Assembly: GCF_003815975.1 (NCBI RefSeq) | Contig: NZ_CP033932.1 | Span: 5,127,501-5,191,500 of the forward strand | Direction: 5' to 3' | Origin: Chryseobacterium bernardetii | GTDB lineage: Bacteria; Bacteroidota; Bacteroidia; Flavobacteriales; Weeksellaceae | DNA: 64,000 bases | Shown here: in pieces, positions 6,043-11,289 of the stretch | Layout of the letters: each line of letters opens with the position of its first letter | Position numbering within the stretch: the first letter of the stretch is position 1 | Made by a program: the position numbers and the translations under genes | The notes under the pieces: model-generated | The model's input: the letters and a program-made list of their open reading frames with translations, nothing else | Database searches by the model: none | What the model was told of the DNA's origin: nothing

Positions 6043-6447
6043 TTAGCTGGTTGGCCAAAGTCCTGCATATTCAGAATTACCATAAGTAATGGTTTCAGCG
6101 CTTACTACGAAGCTAATCAGCATATTATTGCTGTCTATTGCGTCAAAGTCTACTTCGTGCTGAATCACATATCCGTTTTCCCATTTCAAAGTGATTAATG
6201 TTCCTTCTTCATGAGATTTGTTGAAATTGATTTCTCCGGTTGTAGGCTTATATTTGCTGTTCAGTAAACTTTCCAATACATCAGATTTCTCCGTTGCTTC
6301 GATGGTTACTTTAATCAAAGCATTTGACGGATCTGATGCTACACGTCCTGAAACATCTGTAGCCCTTGAAACGCTGTAATTAAGTTTTAATAACTTCTGA
6401 CCTTCACCTCCATTGAATTTTAAGATTCCTCTTGAATTTCCTGCCAT
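6043..6447 (-). CDS. tssD: Type VI secretion tube protein TssD (Hcp), Bacteroidota type
   Basis: 134 residues. Small all-beta protein with the Bacteroidota TssD/Hcp pattern: NYSVSRATDVSGRVAS near the start, then IKVTIEATEKSDVLESLL, an acidic DFDAID, and the C-terminal MLISFVVSAETITYGNSEY. No signal peptide, as expected for a tube subunit assembled in the cytoplasm. No other T6SS gene (sheath, baseplate, ClpV, membrane complex) is in the window. It has its own -7 promoter element (TATCTTTG at 6500-6507) and its own terminator. It may serve a T6SS encoded elsewhere or be an effector-carrying or orphan Hcp. Confidence 0.82.
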   Translation of the reverse strand: MAGNSRGILKFNGGEGQKLLKLNYSVSRATDVSGRVASDPSNALIKVTIEATEKSDVLESLLNSKYKPTTGEINFNKSHEEGTLITLKWENGYVIQHEVDFDAIDSNNMLISFVVSAETITYGNSEYAGLWPTS

Positions 6448-8821: not shown

Positions 8822-8853
8822 AAAAAGGCTGTTTTATTTCTAAAACAACCTTT
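8822..8853 (-). terminator. Terminator of the barnase-barstar cassette
   Basis: On the minus strand AAAGGTTGTTTTA pairs with TAAAACAGCCTTT (one G-U pair), then TTTTTG. It follows the barstar stop by 20 bases. Confidence 0.8.
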
Positions 8854-8873
8854 TCTATTTTTTTCATTACCAA

Positions 8874-9182
8874 TTAGTCTTCTGTTTCTTCTTCATCCTC
8901 ATCATCTTCATATTGCTCCAGGTAGTAGCTGAAAGTAAAACCTTCCACTTCTTCTTCAGCATCTTCCAATGTGGTTAAAAGGTCTTCGAAGATTTCAAGC
9001 TGATCTACCGTCATATTCACAAATTCAATGTGAAGCGGCATTTCAAGGTCTCCGGTAATGGTATCGAAAAGCGCATCAAGGTTATCTCCGAAATGTTCAG
9101 GAAGCTGAACCTTTTCTTTTAATTGAGCATAGAAATCCTCATAATCGCCTATGTCTGTAAAATCTATATATACTGTCTTCAT
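8874..9182 (-). CDS. Barstar-family RNase inhibitor
   Basis: 102 residues, no signal peptide, so cytoplasmic. Matches barstar: the MKTVYIDFTDIGDYEDFY start, a helix with LPEHFGDNLDALFDTITG (the conserved 'fG.NlDAl.D.l' segment that plugs the RNase active site), then a beta/alpha C-terminal half. The tail is very acidic (EQYEDDEDEEETED). The ATG overlaps the stop of the archaemetzincin gene (ATGA). The barnase-like gene lies further upstream, so this is very likely its cognate immunity protein. Confidence 0.88.
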   Translation of the reverse strand: MKTVYIDFTDIGDYEDFYAQLKEKVQLPEHFGDNLDALFDTITGDLEMPLHIEFVNMTVDQLEIFEDLLTTLEDAEEEVEGFTFSYYLEQYEDDEDEEETED

Positions 9183-9796
9183 ATTGAACTAAATTTCCAA
9201 TTTTTACTGATTAAAAAAGTTTTGCATTTTTTGCAGAAATCCGTTTCTTCATTGGTAGGATTTTTTCCTTCCGCGGATCTCATAAAACACATTTTTTCCG
9301 GACAATGTGACAACCCTTGAGTATGCCCAAGCTCGTGAATAGCAATTTTATAAAACTGTTCATCCAAATTTTCTTTATTTAGCCTAAAGCTTGAAGCTAC
9401 ACAGGCTTTACCAGGTCTATATCCTAAGCCCATAACTCCAAAATCTTTCACTTTTCCTTTGGTAACACTGATATCTTTTGACGTGAGCCCAATGGTAATA
9501 AAATCTTCTTTTGTTTTATTGCTTAAAAACTTAATGATTGAGTCTGCTCTGTAACGGTTTCTTTCTTTATAATAGGCATTTTCCGGAAAATCTATAGCCT
9601 CAAGAACTTTAACATTGGGATATACTTTTTTAATTCCTTCTGCTACTGCTTCCACCTTTTCAGGTTTTATATCCCTGAAGGGCTGCACCAATATGGTTAT
9701 TGCAGATTTTTGTTCCGGCTCTTTCACTATTTTCTTTTCTGAGCATGAGAATATCATAAATAAACACAATGCGCATGCAAAACTTTTATTTTTCAA
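9179..9796 (-). CDS. Archaemetzincin-like zinc metalloprotease, probable lipoprotein
   Basis: 205 residues. Residues 154-172 carry the archaemetzincin motif HELGHTQGLSHCPEKMCFM: three zinc ligands (His154, His158, His164), catalytic Glu155, and Cys165/Cys170. Cys188/Cys191 (CKKC) complete the second zinc site; their spacing from the Met is two residues shorter than the published pattern as I recall it. An N-terminal signal with a lipobox-like IFSC (Cys18) suggests an outer- or inner-membrane lipoprotein, unusual for a family mostly described as cytoplasmic. It sits between barnase and barstar genes and overlaps barstar by 4 bases. Confidence 0.85.
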   Translation of the reverse strand: MKNKSFACALCLFMIFSCSEKKIVKEPEQKSAITILVQPFRDIKPEKVEAVAEGIKKVYPNVKVLEAIDFPENAYYKERNRYRADSIIKFLSNKTKEDFITIGLTSKDISVTKGKVKDFGVMGLGYRPGKACVASSFRLNKENLDEQFYKIAIHELGHTQGLSHCPEKMCFMRSAEGKNPTNEETDFCKKCKTFLISKNWKFSSI

Positions 9797-9884
9797 AATT
9801 ACTACTTATCCTAAGTTAAATGCAAATTATACTTTTTTACTTTTGATATCATACTTCAGATCTTATCATTGTAAGGAATGGCAG

Positions 9885-10400
9885 TTACTGTTTTTCAAAA
9901 CTCTTGTAATGGTTTTTAGTAAGGTAAACATCTCCATCTTGGGTATAAATAATCCGGTCTGCATTTCTTCCACCGCAATGGTAGTTAACATCAGCCTCAA
10001 AATATTTGTCTCCATCTGGTAATCTTCCTTCCCTGTTTCCGAATTTATCTCCTCCAATGGCCTTTCCTGGAAGTACATCGCAAAGATTTCCTTTTGAAGG
10101 ATTCCATCCCTGGCTTCTTGCTTCTCTTTTGGTAATATAGTAATCGGGAAGCTTATGGTTTTTCTTTACGTAGCTGATAACCGTTTTTTCTTCAGTCAGT
10201 TTTTCAATGGAAACCTGTCCTGATGAAGCTCCGGCATTATACTGATCTTCTGTGGAAGCACTGCCATAATTTACCGTTTCTGTTTTAGCTGAAGTTAGAT
10301 GATCTTTGCTCTTAATGAAATTATTATAGATATACATCACAGACATTCCGAAAAGAAGGCCAAGACATATAAAAAACACAGCTCTTGTTTTACTGTTCAT
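9885..10400 (-). CDS. Barnase-like ribonuclease with N-terminal membrane anchor
   Basis: 171 residues: transmembrane helix or uncleaved signal at 7-28, a polar linker (30-70), then a complete barnase/guanyl-RNase domain (75-171). Conserved elements: LPDYYITKREA (Lys91 = barnase Lys27), GKAIGGDKFGNREGRLP (Arg123 = Arg59), YFEADVNY (Glu135 = catalytic Glu73), GGRNADRI (Arg145 and Arg149 = Arg83 and Arg87) and KNHYKSF (His164 = catalytic His102). Cys107 and Cys142 could form a disulfide, in line with export. Predicted to act outside the cytoplasm on RNA. The gene precedes the archaemetzincin and barstar genes on the same strand. Confidence 0.9.
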   Translation of the reverse strand: MNSKTRAVFFICLGLLFGMSVMYIYNNFIKSKDHLTSAKTETVNYGSASTEDQYNAGASSGQVSIEKLTEEKTVISYVKKNHKLPDYYITKREARSQGWNPSKGNLCDVLPGKAIGGDKFGNREGRLPDGDKYFEADVNYHCGGRNADRIIYTQDGDVYLTKNHYKSFEKQ

Positions 10401-10497: not shown

Positions 10498-11289
10498 TTA
10501 TTCTCTCCAGTCTTCAGGAATGTCGCAAACAGGGATAGGATTTATCTTATGTTTTGCTGCTTTATGCATTCTGTCAAAGATCTGGAATACTTCCTTATCT
10601 CTTCCTTCATAGTCATCAACTGTTTTAGTTCCGTATTCTTTCTGGATTTTTTCCAGTTCCGGATAGGTTGCACCAATCTGCTGTTCATCGGTACGGTCTA
10701 CATCCCAAAGCCCGTCTGTAGGAATTGCTTCCTGGATGCTTTTGATAAGATTTAGTCCTTTGGCAAGCTCATATACTTCAGTTTTATAGAGGTCTGCAAT
10801 AGGTGAAACATCTACCCCACCATCTCCATATTTTGTATAGAACCCGATTCCAAAATCTTCTACTTTATTTCCGGTTCCACAAACCAAAAGCCCGTTCAGC
10901 TGCCCATAATAATAAAGTGTAAGCATTCTAAGACGTGCTCTAGTGTTGGCAAAGGTTAAATTCTCATTAGGATATACCTCACCCTTTACATGAAAGGTTC
11001 TATAGATCTCTTCAAATGCCGGCGTCAGATCTACAGATATTATTTCTACATTTGGAAATCTGGATTTAAGATCATTCATATGGTCCTTCGCACGGTCTAT
11101 CTGGTCAGCTTTCTGGCGAATCGGCATCCCGATCAATAATGTTTTCATGCCTGTCATGGCTGCCAAAGTAGAAACCACTCCGGAATCTACTCCTCCGGAA
11201 ACTCCAATTACATATCCGTTTACTCCTGCATTTACTGCATAATCCTTTAACCACTTTACGATATGATCTATCACTTTTTGTGTCTGCAT
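10498..11289 (-). CDS. nadE: NH3-dependent NAD+ synthetase
   Basis: 263 residues; converts deamido-NAD, ATP and ammonia to NAD+. N-type ATP pyrophosphatase loop SGGVDSG at 31-37. Further family elements are FANTARLRMLTLYYYGQ, LVCGTGNKVEDFGIGFYTKYGDGGVDVSPIADLYKTEV (in two parts) and the C-terminal KHKINPIPVC. No glutaminase domain, so it uses ammonia. Lies upstream of gldB on the opposite strand; the nadE-gldB neighbourhood recurs in flavobacteria as I recall. Confidence 0.95.
   Translation of the reverse strand: MQTQKVIDHIVKWLKDYAVNAGVNGYVIGVSGGVDSGVVSTLAAMTGMKTLLIGMPIRQKADQIDRAKDHMNDLKSRFPNVEIISVDLTPAFEEIYRTFHVKGEVYPNENLTFANTRARLRMLTLYYYGQLNGLLVCGTGNKVEDFGIGFYTKYGDGGVDVSPIADLYKTEVYELAKGLNLIKSIQEAIPTDGLWDVDRTDEQQIGATYPELEKIQKEYGTKTVDDYEGRDKEVFQIFDRMHKAAKHKINPIPVCDIPEDWRE

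Follow-up and report, generated by a model that had tools for sequence, protein, structure and literature searches.

Genomes of the genus Chryseobacterium contain a variant of the barnase-barstar pair in which an archaemetzincin gene is embedded between the genes of the RNase and its putative inhibitor. The RNase and barstar belong to the core genes of the genus, and the peptidase appears to be useful where it is kept but dispensable elsewhere, because intact copies are under purifying selection while their presence is patchy. The simple barnase-barstar pair is known, and the variant with the embedded archaemetzincin is new; in open-licence literature, searched by titles and the beginnings of abstracts, no description of an archaemetzincin located between an RNase and a barstar was found. 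The identities and the order of the genes, the conservation of active-site and interface residues, the grouping of the linked archaemetzincins, their patchy presence and the selection acting on the genes were computed. On balance, we consider it reasonably probable that the locus specifies an extracytoplasmic RNase, its cytoplasmic inhibitor and an accessory exported peptidase, which are made together.

Organization of the locus

The window, i.e., the whole stretch of 64,000 nucleotides that was analysed, belongs to a genome consisting of a single 5.3 Mb contig (family Weeksellaceae). As judged from the ORF calls, the genes for RNase, archaemetzincin, and barstar follow one another on the minus strand (8874–10400; Table 1). 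An earlier note, made from the sequence alone, had assigned these identities to the three products, and all of them were borne out by scores above the Pfam cut-offs: the RNase matched the Ribonuclease family PF00545 (56.8 bits, cut-off 24), the protease Peptidase_M54 (PF07998; 42.2 bits, cut-off 24.4), and the putative inhibitor the barstar family PF01337 (70.5 bits, cut-off 23.4). That the protease stop and the start of barstar overlap by four bases was confirmed as well.

Table 1 Features of the locus, with positions in the window
Feature	Position	Strand	Remarks
nadE (NAD+ synthase), upstream neighbour of the RNase gene, same strand	10498..11289	−	ORF and Pfam
Barnase-type RNase, predicted to be membrane-anchored	9885..10400	−	171 aa, ATG start; ORF, Pfam, and structure match
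Archaemetzincin-like lipoprotein (predicted), peptidase M54	9179..9796	−	205 aa, TTG start, lipobox-like Cys18
Archaemetzincin zinc motif, H154–C191, HELGHTQGLSHC-x4-C-x-M-x15-C-x2-C	9224..9337	−	read from translation
ATGA, 4-base overlap of protease stop and barstar start	9179..9182	−	read from sequence
Barstar	8874..9182	−	102 aa, ATG start, by eye no signal peptide; ORF and Pfam
Terminator-like hairpin and T run, directly past barstar	8822..8855	−	pattern scan and folding

Because of the hairpin and T run that follow barstar, this is the probable end of the transcript; the folding z-score of the hairpin is −5.0, and two terminator-like sites were counted in the locus region, as compared to 1.0 in shuffled sequences. 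Sigma-70-like sites in the same region were no more frequent than in shuffles (7 vs. 6.7), so that no promoter is claimed. The three genes are probably co-transcribed. In other genera, an ORF resembling nadE (by eye) is also located upstream of the locus, either as such (L294, L302, L305, L306, and L307) or with one intervening ORF (L295 and L296). The nearest named locus is that of Chryseobacterium jejuense, with a peptidase identity of 87%, although the record of the source genome itself is possibly absent from the list. A gene coding for an Hcp/TssD-like protein (PF17642, 110 bits) is present at 6043–6447 of the window on the minus strand, 2.4 kb from barstar.

The RNase and its predicted membrane anchor

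PF00545 is the sole domain above the Pfam cut-off in the RNase. The best relative of solved structure, as found by sequence, is barnase 1bne; the structure model superimposes on barnase with an rmsd of 1.3–1.5 for most Foldseek matches, and the domain shares 46–55% identity with barnase and binase chains. The catalytic residues named in the earlier note (E135, R149, and H164) stood up to alignment: K91, R123, E135, R145, R149, and H164 correspond to K27, R59, E73, R83, R87, and H102 of barnase, which we take to be its active-site residues, and all six are invariant in the 118 rows of the genus alignment. In two of the 118 genomes (G032 and G062), the RNase gene is interrupted by in-frame stops or breaks.

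The residues C107 and C142 are likewise invariant in all 118 rows. In the alignment they fall on positions 43 and 80 of 1bne, a barnase mutant with the engineered disulfide A43C/S80C, and for this reason they are likely joined by a natural disulfide bond in an oxidising compartment. The natural cysteine pair matches the choice made by protein engineering in 1bne.

In the structure model, a single long helix (residues 3–33) precedes a linker (33–61) with pLDDT <50 and a confidently predicted barnase domain (about 65–171). A strong hydrophobic stretch within residues 1–45 (19-residue mean of at least 1.6) was detected in 117 of the 118 sequences of the genus, the sole exception being G062, the start of which is missing. 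A pattern search identified an AxA-like site at residues 23–34 in four of the 118 sequences, including G062. Because of the long helix, the nearly universal hydrophobic stretch, and the scarcity of AxA-like sites, the N-terminal helix is read as an uncleaved anchor in the inner membrane, which would position the domain in the periplasm.

The archaemetzincin-like protein, a predicted lipoprotein

Besides its match to Peptidase_M54, the protease scored 119.8 bits with the NCBIfam archaemetzincin model NF033823, which is below the curated cut-off of 145 for this subfamily, and 43.4 bits with NF033824 (CarG-type; cut-off 250). The archaeal archaemetzincins 2x7m, 4axq, and 3zvs are its best relatives of solved structure by sequence, and the same three were the best Foldseek matches of the model (pLDDT 88.9), with a TM-score of 0.70/0.89 to 3zvs_B. 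In public annotation, the peptidase already carries ordinary names such as archaemetzincin, Zn-dependent protease, or matrixin.

The archaemetzincin motif is given as HEXXHXXGXXHCX4CXMX17CXXC in PMC3427221. All zinc ligands are present in the protease, as the earlier note had claimed, with a spacing of 15 instead of 17 residues ahead of the last CxxC; a pattern that allows 13–18 residues in this spacing matched 67 of the 68 copies of the genus, broken ones included. The catalytic Glu (Glu155) is present. The TTG start recurs in all 17 genus rows whose match reaches that codon as Leu-Lys. A lipobox-like sequence, [SAF]C[ST][EDKG]K, was found near the N-terminus in 65 of the 68 copies by pattern only. 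Hydropathy, pattern, and model are in line with both the RNase anchor and the protease lipobox that had been proposed earlier. The export signal to which the earlier note had drawn attention is present by pattern, but it is not peculiar to the locus, since export-looking N-termini are common among the relatives of the protease in other Bacteroidia that do not contain this RNase.

A role as peptidase is not certain for the linked protein, because the archaemetzincins of two archaea were inactive on standard substrates (PMC3427221); AMZ-tk is described as an active archaemetzincin in PMC4681839. According to PMC3427221, the biological importance of the archaemetzincins is very poorly known.

Barstar and its possible coupling to the protease gene

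The residues D36 and D40 of the window barstar correspond to D35 and D39 of known barstar, the core of the barnase-binding site, and both are invariant in all 118 rows of the genus. The equivalents of Y29, W38, and W44, which we take to be aromatic contacts to barnase, are H, F, and D in the window copy. Binding of the barstar to the RNase of the window is plausible, as judged by the conserved aspartates; since these two are the only ones kept among the contacts considered, its affinity could be lower.

The ATGA overlap with barstar occurs in 55 of the 61 intact archaemetzincin copies of the genus, as compared to two of the seven broken ones, which makes translational coupling of peptidase and barstar a fair assumption.

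Distribution of the three genes

A sample of 118 Chryseobacterium genomes was searched with each of the proteins (E ≤1e-6 for RNase and barstar, E ≤1e-10 for the archaemetzincin). All 118 genomes contain both the RNase (61–100% identity to the window) and barstar (72–100%), invariably on the same contig and strand and at most 1086 bases apart. The archaemetzincin is present in 68 of the genomes, always between RNase and barstar; 61 copies are intact, and seven are broken by stops or truncation. At E ≤1e-10, none of the 68 genomes carries an archaemetzincin of the linked type away from the RNase-barstar locus. Of the 57 genomes without an intact copy, 50 lack the gene. Remnants of it were recognized in the gap in six of these 50 genomes (E <0.01; none in three shuffled sets), and at E <1 the number of matches rose to 11 (3, 0, and 0 in the shuffled sets). 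Because of these remnants, the absence of the archaemetzincin reflects, at least sometimes, a loss in place.

In 28 genomes, the gap between the RNase gene and that of the protease or barstar is extended to 402–554 bases. All 28 gaps hold a GIY-YIG-like ORF (about 102 aa, PF01541) or its pieces (e.g., L003 and G005), 12 of them in genomes with and 16 in genomes without the peptidase. The ORF is probably a repetitive mobile element, and a fourth gene of the system in these gaps was considered and rejected.

The source genome contains a second archaemetzincin of 318 aa with a lipobox-like FFSC sequence (L002; G000:C1:1979295-1980248, minus strand), which has matches in 57 of the 118 genomes (E ≤1e-30), some copies being broken. 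It accompanies the intact linked copy in 40 of 61 genomes and occurs in 17 of the 57 without it (Fisher p 0.0001, kinship ignored); pairs corrected for kinship indicated no association of the two (16 independent pairs, median p 1). Redundancy with the 318-aa protein as an explanation for the loss of the linked gene was rejected, as the two do not avoid each other.

Among 216 genomes of the family (33 genera), profile searches detected 179 with the RNase (25 genera) and 183 with barstar (27 genera). The archaemetzincin profile matched 61 genomes (12 genera; E ≤1e-6), four of them solely through another protein of roughly 300 aa (G093, G228, and G284) or a remnant (G107). Among the matches listed for family genomes outside the genus, the RNase gene lies next to that of barstar in 61 of the 67 genomes that show both. 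Likewise among the matches listed, 18 family genomes outside the genus carry an archaemetzincin, 13 of them in the locus, and three of these 13 copies contain a mid-gene stop or more. Of the five listed archaemetzincins located elsewhere, the four examined are accompanied by neither RNase nor barstar in the surrounding 3 kb or so.

In a scan of named genomes, 73 of the best 80 of 147 confirmed stretches show the order RNase, archaemetzincin, barstar; Epilithonimonas, Cloacibacterium, Soonwooa, and Halpernia are included. The remaining seven of the best 80 (L252–L258, from Flectobacillus, ‘Cellulophaga’, Ferruginibacter, and others) contain the peptidase alone. The triplet described in the earlier note, whose absence from relatives would have spoken against the proposal, thus recurs in related genomes and, given the same order in 68 of 118 genomes of the genus and in 73 of the best 80 named loci, is not a local accident.

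The sample of the class comprised 295 genomes, three of the genus and 292 others. A profile of the RNase (E ≤1e-10) matched the three genus genomes and none of the 292 others, while the archaemetzincin profile (E ≤1e-20) matched 31 of the 295 genomes, 28 of which are outside the family. A search of the class with the Pfam model of barnase (0/277) was discarded because it missed the RNase of the window itself, and the profile search was used instead.

Recruitment, loss, and selection

A tree of 66 archaemetzincins places the 29 linked proteins together on one side of a single branch (support 97/92; 97% of 200 bootstrap trees, with the bootstrap not fully settled). Because the linked proteins form one group, the simplest reading is that an already exported peptidase was probably recruited once into the RNase-barstar locus and then lost repeatedly. 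When the presence of the intact archaemetzincin was mapped on a tree of RNase and barstar of the 118 genomes, 30 changes (gains or losses) resulted, 16 of which are forced by well-supported branches; this tree was built from 272 columns and leaves 45 of its 115 inner branches open, and two of its long branches are perhaps falsely joined.

Intact archaemetzincins are under purifying selection. In genomes with an intact copy, the median pairwise dN/dS was 0.099 for the RNase, 0.064 for barstar, and 0.107 for the archaemetzincin (282, 284, and 209 pairs, respectively, which are non-independent). Within the RNase, the domain evolves slowly (0.062) and the linker fast (0.34). The medians were higher in genomes without the archaemetzincin, namely 0.144 for the RNase and 0.081 for barstar, and the RNase value was elevated in three of four dS bins, e.g., 0.158 vs. 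0.099 at dS 0.9–1.2 (non-independent pairs). The increase could reflect relaxed constraint, hinting at a functional link, or merely different lineages, and it is too weak to shift the odds among the explanations for the target of the peptidase.

Possible roles of the embedded peptidase

In the arrangement that we consider reasonably probable, the RNase would be tethered to the inner membrane via its uncleaved N-terminal helix, and a flexible tether would keep the disulfide-braced barnase domain on the periplasmic side, where it might cut RNA reaching the cell envelope. Barstar would block RNase that folds prior to export, guarding the cytoplasm. The archaemetzincin lipoprotein would be made alongside the two proteins as a peptidase of the same compartment, probably recruited once and presumably of use to some species but not required by others.

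Release of the RNase by the protease, as suggested in the earlier note, is not supported so far. The archaemetzincin would in this case cut the disordered linker and free the RNase domain to the periplasm, to vesicles, or to the medium, where it would act as a released toxin or as a digestive enzyme with barstar as immunity protein. An envelope location is predicted for both proteins and disorder for the linker, the genes are neighbours in one likely operon after a single recruitment, and the selection on the intact archaemetzincin as well as the higher dN/dS of the RNase where the protease is absent would also fit. Linkers are slightly longer in the presence of the protease (38.2 vs. 36.2 residues; p 0.018, uncorrected for kinship), and their entropy is lower (1.99 vs. 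2.38). However, if a site in the linker were needed, linkers should be better kept in the presence of the peptidase, and no steady difference was observed at equal identity of the domain: linker identities with and without the protease were 0.74 and 0.83 at domain identities of at least 0.95, 0.63 and 0.66 at 0.90–0.95, 0.50 and 0.43 at 0.85–0.90, 0.39 and 0.37 at 0.80–0.85, 0.34 and 0.36 at 0.75–0.80, and 0.29 and 0.30 at 0.70–0.75. No motif was seen in the linker, and a conserved cleavage motif was rejected despite the difference in raw entropy. Besides, RNase and barstar persist in the 50 genomes without the protease, and relatives of the protease occur outside the family without this RNase. 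Cleavage at a linker site is thus regarded as unlikely. The matched-divergence comparison is compatible with cleavage that does not depend on sequence, and a dedicated archaemetzincin might recognise the folded RNase or the tether without a fixed linker sequence and release or trim the RNase, resulting in a three-part device; this version, too, is considered improbable.

An independent passenger, also mentioned in the earlier note, would be an envelope peptidase with a target of its own, which sits in a well-expressed operon without a functional link to the RNase. Outside the family, 28 genomes of the class contain its relatives, many with export-like N-termini, but not this RNase, well-supported branches require 16 or more gains or losses of the intact gene, and the mobile GIY-YIG ORF occupies the same gap in 28 genomes. 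A passenger would not be expected to stay at the locus in all 68 genomes of the genus (E ≤1e-10) and in 13 of the 18 other family genomes among the matches listed, although stable gene order alone could explain this retention. Further points against it are the ATGA overlap with barstar, which 55 of the 61 intact copies share, and the higher dN/dS of the RNase in the absence of the peptidase. As originally worded, the proposal is too simple in view of the single group of linked copies, their purifying selection, and the overlap, while the occurrence of relatives with export-like N-termini in genomes without this RNase supports it in part; we regard it as rather unlikely. The peptidase might instead degrade envelope RNase that is misfolded or present in excess and thus add a second layer of safety beside barstar, for which the shared locus and predicted compartment and the overlap with the other safety gene, barstar, could speak; since 57 of 118 genomes manage without an intact copy, however, such quality control is very unlikely. 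Least probable is a weapon in the sense of the polymorphic toxins, with the RNase being sent into rival cells and barstar conferring immunity. According to PMC3482391, barnase-barstar is an established type of toxin-immunity pair, and the Hcp-like gene is located 2.4 kb away, but RNase and barstar occur in all 118 genomes of the genus as one alignable type, unlike polymorphic toxins, no delivery domain was found by Pfam in the 171 aa of the RNase, and the anchor would retain the toxin. A PADLOC search for defence systems gave no match for the three proteins of the locus.

Relation to known systems

Simple barnase-barstar pairs were described as widely distributed by Zhang et al. 2012 (PMC3482391). 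The locus resembles the barnase-barstar pair of Bacillus in the sequence and the catalytic set of the RNase, the two key aspartates of barstar, and the position of the toxin gene ahead of the inhibitor gene. Bacillus barnase, according to PMC8625414, is secreted with removal of its signal peptide and contains no disulfide, so that the Bacillus model applies only partially. In contrast, the RNase of the window is predicted to remain on a membrane anchor, and its natural cysteine pair occupies the positions at which such a pair was engineered into barnase; moreover, about half of the genus has an archaemetzincin gene between the two genes, and RNase and barstar belong to the core genes of a genus of the Bacteroidota. 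As to the polymorphic toxins, which are characterized by a delivery domain and a variable toxin tip, the RNase is of one type across the 118 genomes.

The protease shares the metzincin fold, the HExxHxxGxxHC sequence, and four cysteines with AmzA (M54) of Archaeoglobus and Methanopyrus, but differs in its lipoprotein-type N-terminus, the shorter spacing before the last CxxC, a score below the NCBIfam cut-off, and its location with an RNase and an inhibitor. CarG of Myxococcus, a non-proteolytic archaemetzincin-like protein, is also a bacterial member with the same fold, to whose model NF033824 the protease shows the sub-threshold match given above. Gln replaces the catalytic Glu in CarG (PMC3427221), whereas the linked protease retains Glu155.

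For the archaemetzincins, about whose natural targets little is known, the locus provides a concrete candidate partner. The question of their substrate becomes directly testable, because a bacterial member is encoded beside an RNase and its inhibitor in several genera, with species that naturally lost the gene available for comparison. If the protease were indeed dedicated to the RNase, it would be the first archaemetzincin with a natural substrate known from its gene neighbourhood. In Chryseobacterium and its relatives (Weeksellaceae), barnase-barstar would represent a core, predictedly anchored, and cysteine-paired enzyme of the envelope, not only the secreted Bacillus enzyme or a toxin tip.

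Other arrangements of RNase and barstar

RNase and barstar are far apart or on different contigs in G190, G167, and G180 of one sister genus (L309 and L310). In three genomes of one sister genus (L291, L292, and L293, from G244, G182, and G212), ORFs for an efflux protein, an HlyD-like protein, and an ABC-2 permease separate the two genes by 5–7 kb; the Pfam identities of these inserts (outer-membrane efflux, HlyD-like, ABC-2) refer to the copies of G212. The pair thus tolerates inserts other than the archaemetzincin. In L292, an ORF that looks by eye like a transposase splits a permease between RNase and barstar.
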